Origin: Aotearoamyces nothofagi
Lineage: Eukaryota > Ascomycota > Leotiomycetes > Leotiales > Tympanidaceae
Reading direction: 5' to 3'
DNA: 64,000 bases
NCBI GenBank assembly: GCA_015345905.1
Contig: JADDTR010000013.1
Location: 1 to 64,000 of the forward strand
Positions 3,928-63,393 of the stretch are shown here, piece by piece. Below the pieces are notes generated by a model that saw only the letters and a program-made list of their open reading frames with translations, was not told the DNA's origin and did not search any database. Made by a program: the position numbers and the translations under genes. How positions within the stretch are numbered: the stretch's first letter is position 1; every line of letters starts with the position of its first letter.

Positions 3928-5950
3928 ATAAGTCAATTGAGAAGAGAGAGAGAGATATTATAGTAGAAGTAGAGATATCAAAGGACAAGGTAGATATATT
4001 AGATCTACCTTTTATACAGCAAGTATTACAACAAATACAGAGGATAGGAACATTAATACTAAAACCAAGATAAAAGAGGGCATTAGATAATAATCAGAGT
4101 ATAGACAAATTAAGTCCTATAAAGAGCTAGACAACTTAGTAAAAAAGAGTTTAGAAGTCTAATAGTTTAGAAGTCTAAGATATAGAATTGTAATTTTAAA
4201 TATAATTGAAATCGAATAGTGTTACTATTGAATGTTATTGTCTATATACCTCAAGTAATATAATTGAAGCTTCTAGTATTACTATAAAGTATTACTGTCT
4301 ATATAACTAATAAATAGTCTAGACTGAACTAAACTGGACTAGACTATTATTTATAGTTCGATCTCAAGCTATATAATATAGACTGTTTTTCAAAGTAGTC
4401 TAGACTGAACTAGACTATAAATACTAGTCCAGTCTCAAGGACTATAATATAGACTGTTTTTTAAAGTAGTCTAGACTAAACTAGACTGTAAATATTAATC
4501 TGGTCTTAAGGACTATAATATAGACTGTTTAAAAATCAAGATACTCAAAGACTAGACTAGACTACTTTTTATAGACCAATTTGGTCTAGACTATTTATTT
4601 ACAGTCTAGTCTAACTAGTCTATATTTAATACTCTACTATCATTTAGAGTTGGTTAGATATAGATAATAAATACTATATCTACTAGTCAACAACTCTTTC
4701 TAGTAGCTATAAGTTCTTCTAAAATAGTAGCTAGCTCTAGTAAAATTCTATCAAAGCTTAGTACTTTAATCTTCTAAGCTAATCTTATTACTAGATTAGA
4801 TACTTAGTTTAGATCAACTTGGTCTTATATTCTAGTTTAGACATTGATAGAGCTTATAATAGAGTTTCTTTAATTGGATAGTATAGATATAGTATTCTAT
4901 TTCTTAGCCTTCTCTCTTTCTAATTCTATTTTCACCACCTTGCCAAAGGTTAAACTATTCTATATTGGCAATATAGAGAGTAGTCAAAGGCTACTAAGAA
5001 GAAGTATAAGATAATGAGAATACTAAATAGATAGAATTATCTTATTAATATTCTCTAGTACTTAAATAGATAAATTAGTATCTAGTTCTATAATTGTCTC
5101 TCTCTTTAGTATAGCCAATAATTCAAAGCTTTCTATACCAATATCTGATCGCCAAGGTAGCAATAGTATATTAGACTGATGAAAACTCTATTCTAAGGTT
5201 GATAAATTATCTAAAGTTAATCTAATATTGCTAGATTTTGTCTTTGATCAGAATCTAATATATCTATAAAATATTTTTATAGTCTCCCTTAAAGGAATTA
5301 TTTCTAATAAGTATATAAACAATTTATATCAACTTTAGTCATTTTAGTTGGATCTAAAATTGGCTCTCGTTTTGCTAGATTCAAGGCCTATAGAAGATTT
5401 ATATACCTCTTTTGACTTGAAACCCTGTTTAGAAACAGTTACTCCAAAAGAAATAGGTAGTATTTACAAACAATATATAAATAAATAATTCAAGTCTAAT
5501 CTCTTAAGAAGATAGTAGAGTAAAAAATCTAATATCTGTCTCTATATACTAAGATATACTATATTATAAGACAAATTTATAGTTTTGGAATTATAACTTT
5601 TTTCTTAGTAAATCTATAAAGTTGCTATTGATATTTCAATTACTTTAGTTATTTTTTCTTAAAGTGAGTATTTAGCAATATAAAAAGGATTATAGTTGGT
5701 TGTACTATCGACTATCTTAATCAGGTCTCTAGTTGCTGTTTCGACTATACCCTCCTGTTTATCTACAACAATTAAAGTCTGTTCTAAATTTGGAGCAATT
5801 AGAGAAATGTTCTAGTGTATAAGGATATAGCTCTAAGTTTTGAAACATTTAAAGAAAGTAATAATGAAGTCCAAGAGTTACTCTAGTATAAGGAGAGATA
5901 TACAAATGCTATATACTTTAGTTTCAGAGTTCAAAGCTAATAAGCGAGTA
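3928..5950. other. AT-rich, RIP-like ruins
   Basis: About 2 kb with very low GC and TAG/CTA-rich words. It contains arrays of TAGTCTAGACTGAACTAGAC-type sequence at 4314-4620 that match the less-decayed repeats at 12.7-13.2 kb. No frame longer than a few tens of codons survives and no protein domain can be recognised, so the original element family is not named. The change to normal base composition occurs near 5930-6070. Confidence 0.7.
4500..4620. repeat. Decayed copy of the 13080-13200 repeat
   Basis: Aligns without gaps to 13080-13200 (offset 8580). Where the right copy reads GACCGGACCGGACCGC this one reads GACTAGACTAGACTAC; differences are almost all C-to-T or G-to-A. Both copies point the same way. 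Confidence 0.85.
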
Positions 5951-6229
5951 TTGATTGGCCTAAATCTGCCTGATCAAATGATACCATAAAACTGATGCCT
6001 CAGGCACTAAGATTCAGGTGTAGCTGAGACTATAGAAATTTTCTTCCTAAGGCCTACAGGCACAAACTTTTAGATGATCCGGCCCGAGCCGGTGACGCGA
6101 TCTAGCTGATCAGGCAACCAACTAGAAGGGCAAAGACCCTCCTCTGAACATTCACAAGTTGCTCACTTTCATCATCTTACCACGATAAGGCCTCAACCAA
6201 ATAAAGCAACCCCAGCAGCAATACCCAGT

Positions 6230-28183: not shown

Positions 28184-30545
28184 ATGAACTCTATGAATGC
28201 ACGTCTAAAAGGTTTCGGCCTAGGATCAAAGCGCAAATCAACCGCAAACTCTACATTACCTCAAGAAGCGTCAGGCTCGTCGGCTCCAATCTCTGGCCGA
28301 CCGGGTCCTGGCTCTGCCACTTCCTCTGCAAACAGTATCCCAATGAACCATCCAGGTGGGCCGGGAAGGCCACCGAGCTATACCTCTGGCTATCCGCCTG
28401 GAGTTATTGGCCAGAACCGAACAACGAGTCCGCCGATGCCCCAAAGAAACTCTCGTACCCCGCCATCGCAGATGATGGGTGGTCCACCTCCGATCAATAC
28501 CTCCGCTGCTGGATATCCTCCTCAGCATCTACAACAAGGTCCTGGCGGCGGACCTCCTCCAGTACAAGCTGGAGGGCCACCGCAATACGGTGGAGCTCCA
28601 TACCCAGGACCGGGACAAGGTGGGATGGTTCCAGTACCATATGCAGCTCGAAGCAACGCGGTGGAGGTGGAAGGCGCTGGGAGAAGTAGATCACAACTGA
28701 TTGTCGGCATTGATTTTGTGAGTACTAGAGTATAGCTTCTACAGCCATAGCTGACATGTTTAGGGAACGACATTCTCGGGCGTGGCATTCGCATTTGTTT
28801 CAAACAATAACACAGAGGCAAAGGAGGACATTATTACGGAATGGCCAGGTGCAGGATCATACACGAAGCAGAAAGTTAGCATAATAAACCCGAGACTGAT
28901 ATGTTAACCTAGTGCTGATGTATTTAGATTCCAACCGTTCTCTACTATGATCAATACCAGAAAGTGGTTGGTTGGGGGCCTGACATCGCAGATGCTCTTG
29001 CCCCGACCGGCTACCCAAAGCCAGGAGTGCAAAAGGTTGAGTGGTTTAAACTTCAGCTTATGCTCTCTGGAAACACCTATATTGACCCCATAAACCTACC
29101 GCCGCTTCCTCCCGGAAAGTCAGAAATCGACGTTGCAGCGGACTACCTCTTCAAACTTCGTCAAGCGATGCGTAATCAACTCCAAAAGACCCTTGGAGAA
29201 GTTTTCAACCGTGAAGAGCGAAATATTCGATACTTCTTGACTGTACCCGCAATTTGGAACGATGCTGGAAAGGCTGCAACAAGAGCTGCTGCGATCCAGG
29301 CCGGTTTCCTGAGGGATGAGAACGACAACCGACTGACACTGATTACCGAACCAGAAGCCGCAGCAATGTTCTGTTCCAAAACCGGTCTCTTAAACCTGAA
29401 GATCCATGACGCTGTCCTTATCGTTGACTGTGGTGGTGGAACCGTTGATTTGATTGCTTATGAGGTTGAAGAGGAGTCTCCATTCACTGTCGCTGAGTGT
29501 ACCGCTGGTTCTGGCGACTCTTGTGGATCAACCGCCCTGAACAGAAATTTCAGCAATATTCTCCGAACAAAGATTCGTAAAATGAAGCTCCCAGAGGGTT
29601 CCAAGACTGCAGGCAGAGTCTACGCAAAGTGTATTATGGATTTCGAGAATAGAATTAAGGCGGATTTCCGAAACAATAACCAGAAATGGGCTGTTGATGT
29701 TGGCATTGAAGCCGAATTCCCGGAAGCCGGCATCGAAGAAGGTTATATGACCTTCACAAACGAGGAAATTTTACAATGTTTCGAGCCCGTGGTGAACAGG
29801 ATCCTGGAACTGGTACGAAATCAGATCATTGCAATTCAAGCCCAGAACCGGACTTTACAAAACGTCCTCGTTGTTGGTGGGTTTGGCGCTTCTGAGTATC
29901 TCTTCCAACAAATCAAACTTCACGTGCCACCTCAGTTCCAGGCCAAGGTTGTAAGACCTATGGATTCCGTGGCTGCTATTGTCAAGGGTGCTGTCACGGC
30001 AGGTATCTCTGAGCGAGTGGTCACCTCGCGAGTCGCCCGTAGACATTATCTCATGGCAACGTTACAACCGTTCAAGGAAGGACACCACCCGGAAGCTTAT
30101 CGTGTACCATCATTAGATGGTAAAGATAGGTGCAAGTTCACTCGTCAAATTTTTGTTCAGAAAGGCCAGAGAGTCAAGATCGGGGAGCCAGTAAAGGTCT
30201 CGTTCTTCAGACAGGTCGCCCCGGGTGCGACATTGATGTATGAGGATATCTTGTACGCATGTGACGATGATGTTTGTCCTGAATATACCAAGGATCCTCG
30301 TAAGCATGCGCTTGATTTAATATTTCCTCCGCTAACTATGGACAGGAGTCAAAGAAGTTGTAACTCTCACCTCCGATCTGTCAAGAAAGAACCTTGAAAA
30401 AGACTTTGAGCGTATGGATACCCCACAGGGCACTTTTTACCGTGTTTACTTCGATATCTACCTCACATTGGACGGTAGTGAGTTCAATGCTGAACTGGTG
30501 TGCCAAGGTGAGGTGATGGGTAGATGTACTAGTCGATTCCGGTAG
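28184..30545 (+). CDS. HSP70-like (HSP12A-type) ATPase with Pro/Gly-rich N-terminus
   Basis: Exons 28184-28717, 28764-28874, 28928-30299 and 30346-30545; introns of 46, 53 and 46 nt keep phase; 738 residues. Residues 1-165 are Pro/Gly/Ser-rich and disordered (PGGPGRPPSYTSGYPP, HLQQGPGGGPPPVQAGGPPQ). The actin-like ATPase begins at LIVGIDFGTTFSGVAF (phosphate-1). The phosphate-2 loop is LIVDCGGGTVDLIAYEV, and the adenosine motif is VLVVGGFGASEYL. The substrate-binding domain of classical HSP70 is replaced by a shorter C-terminal region (GTFYRVYFDIYLTLDGSEF). This is the divergent HSP12A-like group common in filamentous fungi. ATP binding is expected; chaperone activity is unproven. ATG 28193 is an alternative start nine bases downstream. 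Confidence 0.9.
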
Positions 30546-39465: not shown

Positions 39466-41009
39466 TTTAACTCGATCAGTAATCGGTAAGGGTACGAAAG
39501 GTGGATGTGGAACAGTCTTTTCTGGGGTGGACGAGTCGGTAATCGGGTGTGCAATTTTCAAGGTCCATTGTAGTCAGCCTAAGTTTATATCTCTATATTA
39601 GCTACATAGAATTGTGGAAATGCGAATGGTAATAGAATAGAAGCTCACAGGGGATGTTGCCCAGTAGACTGGTTGACGTTGAATCTGTCAAAACAAGGGC
39701 ACGAGCTTGCATTCCATGCCCCCACGCAAAAGAACTGCATATCCTGCTTTAGGGGCGTTTGCCTTCTACGATTATATGTCTCAGTCTTTCGGGAATCGGG
39801 AATGTCGGTATCTGACCTGCTATTAGCTGTGCGGTCCGGACCGTTTCTATATTTGCATGTTCTGTACCTATTTCTGTCATTAATTTGCCGACTTTTGGTA
39901 AAGTATATTATACTCCAGGTAAGAATAAGACCAGAGTTTAAAGATGTGCCCAATTGTATATTCAATCCGGAAGACTTTGAGTTCGGCAGCTCAAGTCCTA
40001 AAACAGCTGAGCTGTAGTATAGACTGACAACATCACCTCATCCTTGACGGAACCTAATTGCGTACACCCCACAGCCCCATACCCCATCTTTCGCTGCCCT
40101 TGCTAAGGAAGGTCCCGCTCCGTTCCAGCCTCCAGTACCGCGTCTAAGTCATGCCATCGTCACGCACCACGGATCACAACACGCATGAGCAACAACTAAA
40201 TGTTTGCAAACAGAAGCACTGGCAGGCTTAAGTTTTGGAAAGTCATTAATATTATGAAGCGATGCTATAACCCACTCCTTTGTATACGCATCAAACAAGC
40301 TTAAAAAGCGTATCTCGATATGCTCCTCGTATATTCCATTGACAGTGGCATTTGTCGGGGCATTTATCGGAAACATGTTTATACTTTGAACGGCGGTACA
40401 TTATGACAGTTCATGTTGTACAAAAGGTTATTTACACCGCACGGGAAAAGGGAGATTCGCGTGTTCTTGTTATTCCTCATGCGAACTAAGGTTTGGCGTT
40501 TTTGATAGGTTGATAGACATCTAAGCTCAATTAAAGTTGTACTAAGTCCTTCTGACAGGCGCCCCAAAGTCTAAGTCGATTAGAGATGCTTATACATGTC
40601 AGATTATTGCATTTCCAGGGTCTTTGAAATATGTACAACGTAGAGTGGGCAGAAATGTCGGAAATATATTGCATAGCCAGTAAACTGGTTGGAGAGAGCA
40701 TCACAGTCGAATATTATCAATATAACTGAATTTGATATAATGGGCTGCCTGCAAATACTAGTACTATTGTATTTATACTATCTTGGCCTTATTTCTATAA
40801 TATGTCTGGACTAGTTGCAAACGGAACGAAGACAAGCCTTCGAGAAACCTGTCTGAGATAGGATTCAAGCCACTGTAGGGAGCATTTTACTTTAGAACTA
40901 CCTCACTACGGCATATCTTGATCTGAGAGGACGGAAAAGTCCTGGCATTCTTGGATAACTATCGTCTTCGGCCCTCAAAGGAAATGAATCTTCGTAAACT
41001 GTCGTATTT
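39466..41009. other. Long spacer, nothing clear
   Basis: Moderate to low GC. Short frames at 39645-40017 and 40149-40376 lack recognisable domains. The last few hundred bases should hold the promoter of the adhesin-like gene. Confidence 0.5.
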
Positions 41010-44000
41010 ATGTCCAAACGACATCTTTTCAGAATGAGAGTATCTACAATCTGGAACGTTGCCTCTTATTTCCTTGGCCTTTCCCAAGCTCTGTTGATCA
41101 CGAGAGAAATAACAGAGGTCTATCGTGCACGCCAGAAGCGCCAAACGACAACAGGATCCACAGTACTCTTTTCCCGTCCTGCCAGTGGGGTAGATACTGA
41201 TGGTATAACCTACTTCTCATACACCAAATTTAATGCCACGTTGACTGCCAGCACAGCGCATGCCTTCTTGACCGTTACCATCCGAAATGACGCCTCGTAC
41301 TTTCGGTACGATGACTTCCTTCTCACTGCGGCCAACGAATCTGCAAATCTTCTTTCAAATCCAGGCTTCGAAGCGGGAGTACTGGCTCCTTGGTTTAGTG
41401 TAGGAGAATCAGATCTAGTAGAAGGGGGAGCGATATCAACCACTTCACCCCACACTGGGACCTACAACTTTAGGGACGGTGCTACTGGAGGGACAGATGG
41501 CTTCTCTCAAGCCATTGTAACCGTTCCTGGTACTGTCTATGCCTTGAGCTTTTGGCTCACGTTGGAAAAAACGGTTCAGCAAGGCGACACAGCTCTTACT
41601 CAGGTCATCTATAATGCTATCTTCTACCCGCCGACCGATCTTGCTTTATCCGCAGCAACGGATACCGGTAACAATAATACCGACGGGATCACTAATATTG
41701 CGCAGCCAACCCTGACTGGAAGTGTTGATTTTAAGGAGCAAGTCAACATATACGTCAATGGAACTCTTGTCGGGTCTACTACATCTAATGATGACGGATC
41801 GTTCACATACACCTTTACTAGTCCTTTAGTTTCCGGTTCTAGCACAATTACAGCAACTGCTGTTGTTGAAAATAGCGAATCCGACATTTCGAACCCTTTG
41901 GCAGTCACCTATATTCCTTCAGCTGTACAGCCAATATTAGTTCTGGACCCGTCAACAGACACTGGTATACAGGGAGATAATATTACTTCTACCAGTGAGC
42001 TCCTCCTTACAGGCACCGGAGAGCCAAATACAACTGTCGCTATATACGATGGCACGACCCTACTGGGCTCCGTCACTACGGATCAACTGGGAGCATTTAA
42101 TTTTACAACTACCGCTCTGGAAACTGGCTCTCATACGTTTACTGCGGATGAAGGTCCAGATGTGGCCGGCAACACGAGGACAACGACCCTAGTAGTAGCT
42201 ATTGTAGCTGTTCCAACGACACCAATTTTGACAGGAATTACAGCAGACACAGACACAGGAGCGAGAGGAGACAATATTACCTCCACGAGTATTGTCGACA
42301 TCACTGGTACTGCCCAAGCATATGATTTAGTCAGCATATATCAAAACTCGACCTTTTACACAAATGTTACTGCCGACAGCCAAGGCAATTTTACATTCCA
42401 AACATTGTCTCTTTCTCCAGGGCCCTATATGTTCACGGCGATATCATCGGATGAGAATGGCGATGTCTCAGCACTCAGTGCAGGACTTACAATAACAATT
42501 ATTCCTGGCCCTCCAATATTGTCTGGCATCTCTGCAGATACGGACACAGGCACTTTGGGAGATCTTAAAACTTCAATAAGACAAGTTGGGGTTACAGGAA
42601 CTTCTATTGCTAATTCCGAAGTTACACTATACGAAGGAACTATTGAAATTGGTTCTGGAGAAACAGATTCTCTAGGAAACTTTACTATCATCACAAGCAG
42701 TCTCGGAATAGGGAACAACACAATCACTGCGCAAGTTGTCGTATTGGACAGCAACAATCAGATTATTCAATCAGAGTTGAGTGACCCATTGGTGGTTTTG
42801 GTAATTGAGCCACCGATTACACCAAGCTTTTCCTCAACCCTTTCTTCCTTGACTACCTTCTCAACGTCCTCAAGTTTACTATCGTCCCAATCATCGACAA
42901 CACCAATATTTCCCAATACAAGCATCACAACTTTTGATATATCAACATCTACATCATCTTTAGCTTCATCAACATATCCGGGGGTCAGCATATCCCTATC
43001 GTCATCCAGTTCACCACTTTCAATCCTGGGTAGTTCTAGTACAACACCATTAACATCATCTTTAACGGCGTCAATATCTGTAGTATCAACATCTCCAGAT
43101 GCTAGCCTATCTCTCTCATCCAATTTATCACTTCCAATCCTAGGCAGTTCCGGCACAGCAACATCAACCCCCTACTTAACAAGTCTAGCTTTACCGATAT
43201 CTTCTGTCAAGCAGGCAGGCAAATTAACATCAGCAACATCTGGAAAATCGGCATTTCCATCCTCTTCAAGTGTGCAAACCTCTGAGCCTCTATCATCTTC
43301 TAACAGTATCATGTCGAGCACTGTCCAAGCCCAAGTCAATCCATCATTGACCTCCAGTAATGCTGCTCTGGTAACATCATTTGAAAACGTTCCATTTGCA
43401 ATCCAAGTTCAAGTACAGACCAACAACAAACGTCAAGTTCTGGGCACGTCTTACCTAGCAATGGATTCTGATAACAATCTAGCAATCGTCAACAGCTGTT
43501 TTGGTGCTCCCACGTTTATAGTTAGCAACGGTCGTCTGACCAGTGGAAGCATGGCTGTTTATGTGCCTACACCAGATATTTCAGGTCCTGGACATGCTCC
43601 AATAGTCTTTACTGAAGCACCCGGGACCGATGACATCCAAAGCGGTTTTGCAATCAACGGCCAGGACAATTTGATCTGGATGAACACAGTATTCCCTAAC
43701 TATGAAGCTAAATTTTGCATGCAGAACAGTATCCTTCAGGCTGTCTTTGATGGGGATACAACCATCATTGCAAACTGTACTCCCGTCATGCTGACTCGAG
43801 CATCTACCGGTAAACATGTTAATGCCACTGAATAACTACAAGGCTAACTGGTATCAAAAGCAATGTGTACTTCCGCTGCCACCACACCAACTACTCTCTC
43901 TTCACTACCATCTACTTCGTCCACAATTGCAGAAAACTCTTCAATAATTCCGGATCTAGCAGCTATAGGCGTTCTCGTTACAATCGAGATTTTGGTTTAT

Positions 44001-44633
44001 TCCTCTATCACAACAACACGCACTATTAGTGCCGATCTGTACGCGACGCCATCCACATACATTGAATCAAGTGCAGATGCACATGGAGTTGCAGGTACAG
44101 CCTCAGTCTCCCAAAGTAGCACTACATATTTAACAAAGATCCTAGAATATTGGACAGTCACAGTTCCTTGTGGTATCTGTCTCTATCAGAGCGCCATTGC
44201 TGGAGAAATCACTCTCTTTCAGGTATTCAAATCGTCATAGCCTTGATATAGCTTAGCCATAACCTAACCTTTATAGACAATCACAGTCTGCGACGTCTGT
44301 ACGACTGCAGGACATCTTCCCAGCACAGATGTCATCATTCCTTGCAATTCCTGCACAGCAACTACCTTTGAAGCATTATCTACTTCATCTGATCCAGTCT
44401 CGAATATTCTAGCCCAGGCGACTTCTGGTGCTACCGTCCTATCCGTGGCTTCGGAAATCGGCCAGGAAAGGACCAACACTCCACAAGCCTCGGCCATCTC
44501 ATCGTATTCTACTGCAGGTACAGGTGGCTCGGGTAGTGAAAGTGCAAGTAATGCTGTGAAATCTATATATGTAAATTCTTTTGGCCGGATTAGCTTGATG
44601 CTTATATTGTTATTATATTTTTACTTTATATAA
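41010..44633 (+). CDS. Adhesin-like GPI protein with bacterial-type Ig repeats
   Basis: Exons 41010-43809, 43861-44222 and 44277-44633 (introns 51 and 54 nt, phases close) give 1172 residues. A hydrophobic segment (VSTIWNVASYFLGLSQALLI) is a probable signal peptide. Residues ~110-205 resemble a carbohydrate-binding jelly roll (NLLSNPGFEAGVLAPW). Residues ~207-604 hold four Ig-like units of ~97 residues, three of which start near DTDTGxxGDN and all carry a G-x-F-x-F/Y strand, as in bacterial surface proteins. Then come ~200 Ser/Thr-rich residues, a globular region (TSYLAMDSDNNLAIVNSCFG) and a Cys-rich part (TVTVPCGICLYQ, TITVCDVCTTAGH, VIIPCNSC). A hydrophobic end (LMLILLLYFYFI) suggests a GPI anchor. 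Cell-surface attachment is inference. Confidence 0.85.
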
Positions 44634-58929: not shown

Positions 58930-61473
58930 TGAAAGGTTTGAAGTAGAGATGCCCGAGGTGATACTGAGTCTAAACCGAGATCATTTTATCTGTTAGGGAA
59001 TAGTGCTCAATATGAGGATCCTGTGATGTTGACGTTGGCGGTGCTGACGAGTAATGTGGATGATGTTGATGATATTCTGAAATCCTGTCTTCCGAGGAGC
59101 TTCTCACTCTCTTATAACAAGAAGACTTCCGTCCTACCTCTCTACAACACCCGGACCTCCCTTCGGCAAAGCTATGATCCCAAAGTTGCAAACGCGCAAA
59201 TGCGTAAATACGTGACAAGGCCTGGCCATGCAGGATGAAAGCGTCGTAAAGCCGCAGTCAAGGCCGAAGCCTCCCTACCATACGTCCTATATAAACCCTA
59301 TCCATCCCACACAAGCTAAAAGAGAGCCGTGGATTCTGAGATATGACGGAGATGGTGGATATGATGGAGGAGGCACATTTTCTGTGTCTGTCGTTCCTGT
59401 CGTCCAGGTTGACTGTTGCGGAGAAGCTTTGACCGGGGCCGGAGAAACAGGGATCGGAGGTCGGAACCACCAATACGCTAGGGGTTAAAGGGTTTGCGGG
59501 TCGTCAGTAAGCACCTCGGCGTGCTCAGTAAGCCATTATCCCCGTCCTGCTTCACTTGATACATTCCAGCCCCTACCACTGTAAGCTTAATGCTGGAGTT
59601 TGCACTGCTCTCTGGCATGTTGTGCACTTGCCCACTCTGAGTAAATGCATTTTGCGTTTGGGGTTATAGGTAAAAAGAAGAGACACAAGGCAGCCAGCTC
59701 AAATATAAGTGCTGGGAAATACAAGACATCCGAACTAAACCTAGACTCTCTGCTAGATTTTATAGCATCTAATGCAATATAGAAATCTTTGAAGTTGGTC
59801 TAGGAATAGGACGTGGTCGACAATACTGTAATGCCAGTTGTATTTGGCGAAGTAATTTCTTACGACAATCTCGAGGTAGATATGGGAGGGCAGCGTGCGA
59901 ATAAGGCGAAGATACCTGTCTCTCAAAGCTGGTGTTAGGCACACTTATGCCTTGCATTTCAGCTGTGCACCACAGCTTCTTATACCATCGACTCCAGAAC
60001 CTTCACTTCCGACTTGGCTATTGTCGATTATAAAGCTTCCAGTAACCCCTCCGATGATTGCTGCGAAACCAAGCCAAAGGCCGCTGGATTACCAACTAAG
60101 TCGTCAATGGGCCGTGAGAGAAGGTAATATTTCTTATTTCAGGTACTTACTTTCCAGGAACGCAATTGCTATTATGTCCTTTGAACTTAGTTGACGTCTT
60201 CTTAGCCTTACTTATTGCAGTAACACATTTCGCAATTATGATCTTAAAGAGTATAAAATTGCACTTGTATGCCATAGCCGAACTTCCAATCATCCTTCTG
60301 GTATCAATAGCCTTTCTATTTCCATTTAGGTAGCGAGGTGTCTGTTGTCAGAACTAATCTCCTGCATAGTCATACCGAATGCAGAGAAAGCATTGGCAGC
60401 TCAGAGATCGACCCCTTTCAAGTAGTTCTGGGTACTTATGCTGTAATATTTTGAGAGCCCAGCCCCTTCAACTAGATATCGTTGAGCTTGGCGATCTTTG
60501 CACCATCTCCGTGAAATATCTCCTCAGCCCGATGCTTGCGTTCTAGTGGTACCCAAGCACCCCAGAATATCTAGTCTGCTCAAACCTACTCGATATCCTT
60601 GAGGTCAATCATCAAGGAGTAGTGCCATGTGGTTCGGGAACAACTAACCTAGGGATATATATCTCGACACCAAGGGCGTCTCATAGTTTGTCACTGGCCA
60701 ACGACATCTTGATGCTGCCAGATAAATGCGTCTTGAGTAAGGAAGGCGTCCGAGGCAACAAAGGAGATATGGGTTGACTGGGAAGGATGATATGAGAGAA
60801 AGGAGGATAAATACCGTGGGTATGAGTTGCGGAGTCAGAGTTGAAGCCAAAAAACAGACAGAGGCCGTGTAGCACAGACGACCTCGCACTAGCCCAGGTA
60901 GGAAAGAGGTAAAAGGGAAGATCGGGCCCCGGACCCCGGGACCCCGGGACCTCCGGAGCTTATCTCTTATCTTCCGGCGCTTTCCCAGCTCCCATGATGT
61001 CATCCATGTATGGCTGCGACGCCTGTCCAGTAGAGAAAAAGACGACGATCGAGAGCGCGTGATTTGCGAAAACTGACAATCCGAAAGTTGGACCGTGGAG
61101 TTTACCCGTTCATCCGCTCACCCCTGCCAGCATTCTCCTTTAGGCTATTCCTGGTTGCAGCCTGAGAACAAAGGCCAGCATCGCCGTTCGTGCGCCGGTT
61201 TATTGGCGCGGATACAGTGCGAGTCCTCGGATCGTGGCCTCAGGCAAATAGGGTACGTGGTCACCTCATCGGGACGCAGAACCGCTGCTCCGCTGCTGCT
61301 ATTGGCACTCCAAGGTCATACGACTCCACTCCACGTGCTTTATAACACCTCGTTGCGCTGCCGGAGCAATCGTCAACTTCGTTCTGCTTCCTCCCTCTTC
61401 GCGCAGACACAACTGAAATAGGTGTCTATCAAACCCACAATCCCGTTGCGAGAAAGAAGATTTTACCGGCAAA
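58930..61473. other. Long spacer before the transketolase-like gene
   Basis: About 2.5 kb without a supported gene. A GC palindrome block (GGACCCCGGGACCCCGGGACC) lies at about 60928-60952. Frames on both strands are short and unsupported. The final ~400 bp should be promoter and leader for the transketolase-like gene. Confidence 0.5.
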
Positions 61474-63393
61474 ATGGTCAGCGGCACTGAAGACTTCGGC
61501 ATTGATGTGCTGGGCAAGTACAAGGCCGTTGCTCTGGATCCAAGCAATCCAAAGCTGTCACCGCAGCAGAAGAGCGATCTGCTGTCCAACATCTCTCTTC
61601 TGAGAGACACAATCGTCTACTTCACTGCCACCGGAGCAGCTCGCGGAGTTGGTGGCCACACCGGTGGTCCGTATGATACTGTCCCAGAAGTGTGCATTCT
61701 GCTCGCCCTTTTCCAGCACTCGTCCGAGAAGTTCTTGCCCGTCGTCTATGATGAATCTGGGCATAGAGTCGCTACGCAATACGTCATAAGTGCGTTGCGC
61801 AAGGCCTTCCCTTTTGAGCATCTCCTCCACTACCGGGAGGCCAATGCGAAGTTGCCGGGACACCCGGAACTCGGACTCACTCCAGGCGTGCAATTCAGCT
61901 CCGGCCGTCTTGGCCATCTCTGGGGCTTTGTAAATGGAGTGTGCCTGGCTAACCCCGACAAGACTGTCTTCTGCCTGGGTTCCGATGGTTCACAGCAGGA
62001 AGGAGACGACGATGAAGCTGCCAGAATTGCGGTTGCACAGAACTTGAACATCAAGCTGCTGCTTGACGACAACGATGTTACGATTGCTGGTCACCCATCG
62101 GTCTACCTGAAGGGCTACTCGATGACAGCTTCCCTTAAAGGACATGGAATGACCGTGTTCGAGGTTCCGGGTGAGGACATTGACCAACTCTACGGTGCCG
62201 TTAGCAGTGCAGTTGCCCATAACGGACCGGTTGCTGTCGTCATCAAGAGGAAGATGGTTCCTGGAATCAAGGGCCTAGAAGGTACCACTCATGCTCACGA
62301 CGTTATCCCAGTGAAGATCGCGATCCAATATCTCGAGGAGCGTGGCTACACAACAGCTGTTGAGAAACTAAAGGCTATCGCACCTAAATCCTCAGCTTAT
62401 ACTTATAGTGGCTCCTCTGCTGAAAAGTTTTCAAACCGCGTCGTCTTTGGCGAATCTGTTGTATCGGTTCTGGATGCGTTGCCAAAGGAGGAGGCTAAAA
62501 GGAGGGTTCGTGTGATCGATTCTGACCTTGAGGGTTCCACAGGACTAAGCGTCATCCATAAAGCGCACCCGGAAGTGTTTATTTCCTCCGGAATCATGGA
62601 AAGAGGCAACTTCTCTGCAGCAGCAGGCTTCGGATCCACAAGGGACAAAGTCGGCGTGTTCTCCACCTTCTCTGCTTTCTGCGAGATGCTTATTTCAGAG
62701 ATTACCATGGCTAGACTCAACTTTGCAAATGTGCTTTGCCACTTTTCGCATTCCGGAGTCGACGATATGGCAGACAATACTTGCCATTTCGGGCTCAATA
62801 CATTCTTCGCCGATAATGGTCTAGAGGACAGTGATACGACGAGGCTTTACTTCCCAGCAGATGCCAACCAGATGAGGAAGGTCGTCAGCAAGGTCTTCTT
62901 CGACCAGGGTATCCGCTTGGTCATCTCGACCCGTGGTAAGGGACCCTTGATCTTGAAGGAGAAGTCACAAGTTCCGTACTATGGAGAAGACTACAAGTTT
63001 GTACCTGGAAAGGATGAGTTTATCCGAGTTGGATCCGCCGGATACGTCGTTGCATATGGCGATATGGTGTATCGCGCCCTAGACGCAGTCGATCGCCTTC
63101 GTAGCGAAGGCTTTGACATCGGTCTTCTCAACAAGGTCACTCTAAACACGGTGGATGAAGAGGCTTTGAAGACAGTTGGCTCATCGCCCTTCGTGCTTGT
63201 TGCCGAGACGCTGAACCAGCGCACAGGCCTGGGTTCGAAGCTGGGTAGTTGGCTCTTGGAGAGAGGTCTTACACCAAAGTATAAGTACGTTGGAACGCAC
63301 AGAGAAGGCTGTGGCGGCTTAGGCGAACAGATCGTCCACCAGGGTCTAGATCCAGAGAGCATTGCCAAGCATCTCCGGGCTCTCCTGAAGTGA
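61474..63393 (+). CDS. Transketolase-like thiamine diphosphate enzyme
   Basis: A single exon of 639 residues. ARGVGGHTGGPYDTV is the counterpart of the substrate-binding S-G-H-P-G loop. The thiamine diphosphate motif is CLGSDGSQQEGDDDEAARIA to LLLDDNDVTIAG (G-D-G-like start, N-D-N-like end, about residues 165-205). In the pyrimidine domain GIMERGNFSAAAGFGS carries the Glu that activates the cofactor (canonical G-I-A-E-Q-N), and FSTFSAFCEMLISEITMA follows. The C-terminal domain ends VGTHREGCGGLGEQIVHQGL. Core transketolase is ~680 residues and uses SGHPG and GDG; this protein differs at several of these, so it belongs to a divergent fungal group. Sugar-phosphate ketol transfer is probable but not certain. 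Confidence 0.85.
   Translation: MVSGTEDFGIDVLGKYKAVALDPSNPKLSPQQKSDLLSNISLLRDTIVYFTATGAARGVGGHTGGPYDTVPEVCILLALFQHSSEKFLPVVYDESGHRVATQYVISALRKAFPFEHLLHYREANAKLPGHPELGLTPGVQFSSGRLGHLWGFVNGVCLANPDKTVFCLGSDGSQQEGDDDEAARIAVAQNLNIKLLLDDNDVTIAGHPSVYLKGYSMTASLKGHGMTVFEVPGEDIDQLYGAVSSAVAHNGPVAVVIKRKMVPGIKGLEGTTHAHDVIPVKIAIQYLEERGYTTAVEKLKAIAPKSSAYTYSGSSAEKFSNRVVFGESVVSVLDALPKEEAKRRVRVIDSDLEGSTGLSVIHKAHPEVFISSGIMERGNFSAAAGFGSTRDKVGVFSTFSAFCEMLISEITMARLNFANVLCHFSHSGVDDMADNTCHFGLNTFFADNGLEDSDTTRLYFPADANQMRKVVSKVFFDQGIRLVISTRGKGPLILKEKSQVPYYGEDYKFVPGKDEFIRVGSAGYVVAYGDMVYRALDAVDRLRSEGFDIGLLNKVTLNTVDEEALKTVGSSPFVLVAETLNQRTGLGSKLGSWLLERGLTPKYKYVGTHREGCGGLGEQIVHQGLDPESIAKHLRALLK

Follow-up and report, generated by a model that had tools for sequence, protein, structure and literature searches.

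Bacterial-family Ig domains in a predicted GPI-type surface protein of the fungus Aotearoamyces nothofagi, probably an old acquisition

Domains shared with bacteria can be built into fungal wall proteins. The PA14 domain of the yeast Flo and Epa adhesins is shared with bacteria and forms the ligand-binding head of a GPI-anchored wall protein. In the Candida Als adhesin, likewise a GPI-type surface protein, an Ig-like head is the binding part. The protein considered here, from the leotiomycete A. nothofagi, has something of each. With Flo and Epa it has in common a bacteria-shared domain in a GPI-type wall protein, but the fold is another one, and the domain that makes a head there probably makes a stalk here. 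With Als it has in common that Ig-like domains form part of a fungal surface protein of GPI type, a likeness of layout.

The closest solved structures are those of the BIg domains of SiiE from Salmonella enterica (2yn3, 2yn5). SiiE uses calcium at two kinds of site: type I lies between neighbours and is made by D117 of the preceding unit with D43 and D97; type II lies inside one unit, at D16 and D24, and is called specific to SiiE (Peters et al. 2017, PMC5466336, in excerpt). More generally, calcium was found in the linkers of all four bacterial extender structures compared in PMC7493085, where the weight of evidence favours stiffening (in excerpt). The SiiE units and the fungal ones have fold, unit length and tandem order in common; however, SiiE has 53 of them and leaves the cell by type I secretion, and the fungal protein has four and a GPI-type end. 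The Pfam family concerned, Big_13, is described as a bacterial stalk domain in PMC9704523, the excerpt of which lacks the string ‘eukaryot’; the excerpt of PMC11573180 holds nothing on fungal Ig repeats, and no paper pairing Big_13 with fungi was found among the open-licence papers searched.

One described ascomycete protein comes near. In Pyrenochaeta lycopersici (now Pseudopyrenochaeta, Dothideomycetes, by taxonomy lookup), a protein carries N-terminal bacterial Ig-like repeats homologous to SiiE (2YN3) and to the calcium-dependent adhesin 4P99 (PMC6299612, 2018, in excerpt). Here too, SiiE-like (2YN3) repeats stand in a fungal protein; they may be kin of the present units or belong to another Big family, and that protein is of enzyme type, with an SMaseD/PLD-family domain and a PLAT domain and, in the excerpt, no wall-protein end described. 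A. nothofagi is thus not alone. Given this precedent, and given that fungi are known to have acquired bacterial domains, the finding reported below is a moderate surprise.

The gene and its predicted protein

The window (the whole stretch analysed) covers the opening 64 kb of contig 13, which has 806,393 bases; the genome comprises 25.5 Mb in 55 contigs. The Ig stretch is spanned by a single open frame (40998-43835, 945 residues from stop to stop), and the three-exon gene model built on it encodes 1,172 residues, or 1,164 if the second ATG is the start. The predicted order of parts is leader, N-terminal region, four Ig units (U1-U4), Ser/Thr-rich stretch, DUF7908, a seven-Cys part and a hydrophobic C-terminus (Table 1). 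An earlier note on this DNA had placed two introns, both outside the Ig cassette; the two predicted GT-AG introns agree with this, lying downstream of it.

Table 1. Predicted features of the window gene, in window coordinates, with the other DUF7908 places in the genome
Feature	Position	Strand	Basis
Exon 1 (leader, N-terminal region, Ig cassette, Ser/Thr-rich stretch, DUF7908)	41010-43809	+	open frame, gene model; start maybe 41034
Leader with terminal Lys-Arg pair, residues 43-44	41034-41141	+	gene model; KR at the aligned place in the paralogue
N-terminal region, weak CBM_4_9 match at residues 112-188	41142-41627	+	Pfam; 52% identity to paralogue
Ig unit 1 (U1), four-residue loop DTGNNNTDGIT	41628-41921	+	Big_13, 50.2 bits
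Ig unit 2 (U2), three-residue loop DTGIQGDNIT	41925-42212	+	Big_13, 53.5 bits
Ig unit 3 (U3), DTDTGARGDNIT	42213-42506	+	Big_13, 40.3 bits
Ig unit 4 (U4), DTDTGTLGDLKT, diverged	42507-42809	+	38-42% identity to U1-U3; sandwich in model
Ser/Thr-rich stretch, residues 601-792, 49% S+T	42810-43385	+	composition
DUF7908 domain	43386-43799	+	Pfam, E 9.2e-19
Predicted intron 1, GT...AG	43810-43860	+	gene model from sequence alone
Predicted exon 2	43861-44222	+	gene model
Predicted intron 2, GT...AG	44223-44276	+	gene model from sequence alone
Predicted exon 3: Cys-containing stretch and hydrophobic GPI-type C-terminus	44277-44633	+	gene model
Other DUF7908 places	contig 25, 115994-116848; contig 39, 8987-10063; single places on contigs 5, 22 and 33		Pfam

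Secretion and GPI-type anchoring are suggested by a hydrophobic leader (best-window value 1.72), a hydrophobic tail (2.78) and the Ser/Thr-rich stretch, all three read directly from the sequence. The Lys-Arg pair that ends the leader is, we assume, a possible Kex2-type cut. An RTX C-terminus or type I secretion end was also looked for: there is no RTX domain among the Pfam matches, and the frame runs into DUF7908 and then the GPI-type end. DUF7908, which we take to be a fungal family, exceeds its cut-off at eight genomic places, one of them the window gene and two of them consisting of adjacent pairs counted singly; it may thus be a module that recurs in the wall-type proteins of A. nothofagi. 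A Pfam scan of 43848-44237 gave no match.

The N-terminal region is harder to place. Its match to CBM_4_9 (PF02018) is partial and weak, at 26.3-28.2 bits against a cut-off of 25.9 and covering profile positions 1-76 of 136; the corresponding region of the paralogue described below scores 24.8 bits, under the cut-off. This weak match is the only one for the region, which had been described as ‘jelly-roll’-like, and the structure model of the region alone (pLDDT 38.7) is uninformative. ‘Adhesin’, as a label for the whole protein, is read from its architecture.

Elsewhere in the window, positions 4001-6000 have a GC content of 27%, against 47% for the whole window, and are perhaps an AT-rich or mutated-repeat island; open frames resembling transketolase (61417-63390) and HSP70 (28928-30394) have modest scores.

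Family, fold and altered residues of the Ig units

The four Ig repeats reported at 41635-42822 are real, and the units now mapped begin and end near those bounds. The cassette comprises residues 207-600, in four units of 96-101 residues that are 34-43% identical to each other; for each of the six pairs, none of 500 shuffles reached the observed score. The opening DTDTG..GDNITS, which had been read as shared by three units, is complete in U3 alone, and the other units carry variants of it: ATDTGNNNTDGITN in U1, STDTGIQGDNITS in U2 and DTDTGTLGDLKTS in U4.

Family and fold both came out as the earlier note had supposed. Exon 1 matches the bacterial Ig family Big_13 (PF19077) over four stretches, with E 2.6e-37 and 127.8 bits, the curated cut-off being 27 bits. 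Scanned singly, U1, U2 and U3 stand above that cut-off; U4 alone fails to match Big_13 even at E 10, its best match being Big_3_5 at 19.7 bits, under cut-off. An NCBIfam scan gave three weak matches, every one under cut-off. An AlphaFold model of 398 residues has four beta-sandwiches, one Ig-like sandwich for each unit with the strand pattern repeated four times, at a mean pLDDT of 94.5. SiiE is its best solved match: in a Foldseek search of the PDB, 2yn5 and 2yn3 occupy ranks 1-5 (best E 9e-14). SiiE also heads a sequence-profile search of the PDB, at E 2.5e-22 with a mixed profile and 7.2e-11 with a profile of the four fungal units only. The alignment behind the model held 36 of 63 candidate stretches, all bacterial or from viral contigs (the paralogue and loci L018 and L019 were left out, and others dropped to limit repeats); the agreement in fold is therefore not independent of homology. 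The cassette, then, consists of bacterial-family Ig domains in an unusual host and an unusual architecture.

Such units occur at two places in the genome, among the best candidates: the window gene and contig 13 at 149.5-149.9 kb, on the minus strand. The second belongs to a paralogue (about 148.0-150.7 kb, some 100 kb from the window gene on the same 806-kb contig) that encodes a matching N-terminal region and one unit (46% identity over 295 residues), then a Ser/Thr-rich part. Its unit, here Q1, falls under the Big_6 and Big_13 cut-offs and was recognised by 48% identity to U1 over 86 aligned residues. DUF7908 has no match in the paralogue (locus L015, 2516-5152, minus strand); after its Ser/Thr-rich part come two near-identical VYTITACPATVTxCPxGSITTE repeats.

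The fungal units were compared with 446 bacterial domains from 79 loci, each covering 80 or more profile positions with E < 1e-5 and taken from 737 listed; a few come from plasmid or viral contigs. Two positions differ. At the GxW Trp, all five fungal units have Phe, where the bacterial units have W in 358 cases, Y in 71, F in 16 and A in 1. The linker Asp after the last strand, probably the equivalent of SiiE D117, is missing from all four cassette units; a loose pattern finds it in 378 of 443 bacterial units (3 of the 446 were excluded, the tail being too short), so that 65 of 443 bacterial units lack it too, and a stricter pattern limited to the unit's own end finds it in 232 of 446. The partners of the type I site are kept unevenly: at the GTAE acid, the likely D43 equivalent, U1-U4 have D, E, Q and I; at the DxAGN Asp, the likely D97 equivalent, they have a gap, D, D and V.

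The type II site presents another picture. In the aligned SiiE sequence, the first Asp of DSDSG and the Asp of GDN have the spacing of eight expected for D16 and D24 and are taken as these two. Both positions of this pair are Asp in U3 and U4, which have the DxDxGxxGDx loop in common with SiiE; only the second is in U1 and U2. Among the bacterial units with a readable motif, the first Asp is present in 1 of 258. U3 and U4 could still hold a SiiE type II-like calcium ion inside the domain.

With no linker Asp, the joints between the fungal units should be calcium-independent and looser; the prediction is that the fungal stalk gave up its calcium joint. Extra glycosylation sites as an adaptation to the ER were also considered and are unsupported, with 0-4 sequons in each of the five fungal units against a bacterial mean of 2.43; the four sequons of U3 exceed most shuffles, 38 of 2000 reaching four.

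Origin and age of the cassette

The reading we prefer, with a probability of about 0.62, is that a Big_13/SiiE-type stalk was acquired from bacteria long ago and later reworked in a GPI-type fungal protein. The ancestor of the window gene and its paralogue would have taken at least one Ig domain from a bacterium with Big_13-rich giant adhesins; the array would later have grown to four units in the window gene, the paralogue having one. Acquisition from bacteria had been proposed in the earlier note, and it is likely, as family, fold and nearest sequences are all bacterial; the arrival of four units as one intronless block goes beyond these results, as the single-unit paralogue puts the fusion before the duplication (unless it lost units) and silent sites are at or near saturation between all units.

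In the non-eukaryotic collections searched, the nearest sequences to the fungal units are bacterial. A tblastn search of 72,556 plasmids gave 52 records, the best from Azospirillum (35% over 383 residues); 50,697 phage records gave seven matches; viral contigs gave no relative in two scans and two loci in a third. A profile search of genome contigs, led by U1 in a mixed alignment, yielded 111 confirmed stretches, of which the best 80 were kept, from 77 loci, and the bacterial set favours U1-like units since it was gathered with this query. Among those best 80, Xenophilus sp. AP218F and Chromobacterium supply the units closest to U1 (50-52% identity over 76-77 residues).

For the whole cassette, the five best loci fetched are all from Azospirillum, at 36-38% identity. 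Clade searches were run around three reference genomes (those of Azospirillum locus L031, Chromobacterium L024 and Calothrix L036). In the order of Azospirillum the cassette was matched at 1e-15 in 32 of 82 genomes, and U2-U4 at E <= 1e-24 in 13 of 82; at that same strict threshold, which leaves weaker matches unlisted, U2-U4 were matched in none of 369 genomes of the class of Chromobacterium and none of 386 of the phylum of Calothrix. Whole-cassette matches in the Chromobacterium and Calothrix reference genomes score lower, at 8.1e-16 and 1.0e-19.

Genomes of the Azospirillum order (loci L018 and L107-L115) carry Big_13-type arrays in open frames of up to 6,651 residues. The arrays of these giant proteins are the nearest to U2-U4 and to the cassette as a whole, and many of their frames run to 3,700-6,651 residues; by contrast with the fungal protein, the stretches read contain no fungal N-terminal region, DUF7908 or GPI-type end. 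Since very long arrays offer more opportunities to match well, this is a donor lead and not proof. Azospirillum-like and Chromobacterium-like sources are the best matches now sampled.

Trees of single units, proposed earlier as a check, were built from 84 and from 39 of the 446 bacterial units together with the five fungal ones (89 and 44 rows, 98-99 columns, fungal rows from this genome only); both are unrooted and have long fungal branches. In each the fungal units fall among bacterial ones, but the two disagree on whether they descend from one bacterial unit or from two subtypes. That several subtypes were taken up as one array, U1 with its four-residue loop from one and U2-U4 with their three-residue loop from another, is a special case of an old acquisition and quite possible, if short of what we would back. 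The 44-row tree, made from another alignment, parts them: U1 and Q1 join two Phycisphaerae rows (98/89), whose letter composition was flagged as odd, and next a pair of Chromobacterium-type rows (91/79), and U2-U4 form a clade (96/91) adjoining Azospirillum units, weakly (79/70). In the 89-row set, holding U1 and Q1 with Chromobacterium-type rows raises the log-likelihood by 15 over the free tree (AU p 0.706).

Mixed arrays do exist in bacteria: of the 48 bacterial loci with readable loops, 16 combine three- and four-residue loops, Azospirillum among these (212 of 446 units have no readable loop). However, in the free 89-row tree the five fungal units make up a single clade (100/80) next to an Azospirillum subtype; the 44-row set does not reject a single fungal clade (AU p 0.275; p 0.138 for U1-U4 without Q1); the Phe and the missing linker Asp are common to units of both loop lengths; and the paralogue has a single unit. 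Naming a donor from one unit tree was dropped, as the 89-row and 44-row trees conflict and the first free tree is beaten by 15 log units.

The second rival would take the whole history further back: the Ig units would belong to a fungal or eukaryotic family that is old, widespread and passed on by vertical descent, with any transfer long before this lineage. Several observations are what it would expect. The paralogue has the same fusion of N-terminal region and unit, and unless it has lost units, the fusion predates the duplication. Silent sites are at or near saturation, both between units and between paralogues. At identical residues, 9 of 51 four-fold silent sites match between the two N-terminal regions (against 0.26 for unrelated sequences), 7 of 28 between U1 and the paralogue unit (0.28 expected) and a fraction of 0.24-0.39 between the cassette units (0.25-0.31 expected), the highest being U3-U4 at 9 of 23; over eight comparisons the range is 0.18-0.39, with 0.25-0.31 expected if unrelated. 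Fusion and repeats are thus old, and conserved amino acids beside nearly random silent sites point to copies that are old and under selection.

Base composition is native as well, GC3 being 0.37 in the cassette and 0.31-0.46 across the remaining exon. A recent transfer is ruled out by these two results. SiiE-like repeats joined to other domains in Pseudopyrenochaeta (Pyrenochaeta) lycopersici would also be expected of an old fungal family (PMC6299612, in excerpt). Against vertical inheritance stand the mere two places with such units among the best candidates of this genome; the position of the fungal units amid bacterial ones in both unrooted trees; and the identity of U1 to some bacterial units, which is higher (50-52% over 76-77 residues, in a set gathered with U1) than to U2-U4 (34-40%). 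We regard vertical inheritance as unlikely.

A spacer in a new secretory route

Under an old bacterial acquisition, the protein might work as follows. A secreted precursor would be cut after Lys-Arg, exported through the ER and given a GPI-type anchor; the four-Ig stalk would be a spacer above the Ser/Thr-rich base, holding the CBM_4_9-like region off the wall to bind sugars. The paralogue would present a similar head on one unit, and the Ig part would then be a spacer of variable length. Transfer and its direction, anchoring after ER export and the spacer role are each inferred.

That the Ig units are instead the binding part is improbable, more so than vertical inheritance. In SiiE the conserved Trp may contact glycostructures, and the C-terminal part mediates adhesion (Peters et al. 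2017, PMC5466336, in excerpt); but every fungal unit has Phe at the GxW Trp (if this is rightly equated with SiiE W74), bacterial tandem arrays act as extenders (PMC7493085, in excerpt), and the N-terminal CBM_4_9-like region is the better candidate binder. A chimeric gene, made by bacterial contamination or by a faulty assembly join, can be dismissed: the N-terminal region, the cassette and DUF7908 share one unbroken frame, the cassette does not differ from the remaining gene in GC or GC3, and the paralogue, about 100 kb off on this contig, shows the same join.

A bolder form of the preferred reading, an old bacterial acquisition, takes in the altered residues. A calcium-stiffened bacterial stalk would have been acquired, multiplied from one unit to four and rebuilt to be independent of calcium; the Asp would have been lost since export through the ER makes calcium-driven type I secretion unnecessary, and every unit would have exchanged its Trp for Phe. 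We offer this tentatively, as something more likely wrong than right in its full form.

If it is true, it would show that the eukaryotic secretory route can take in a modular bacterial extender, with the Trp and the calcium joint that goes with type I secretion as the features dropped on the move. That the stiffness of the fungal stalk is independent of calcium is a prediction of this account, and the paralogues with one and with four units, on one contig, would be a natural comparison.
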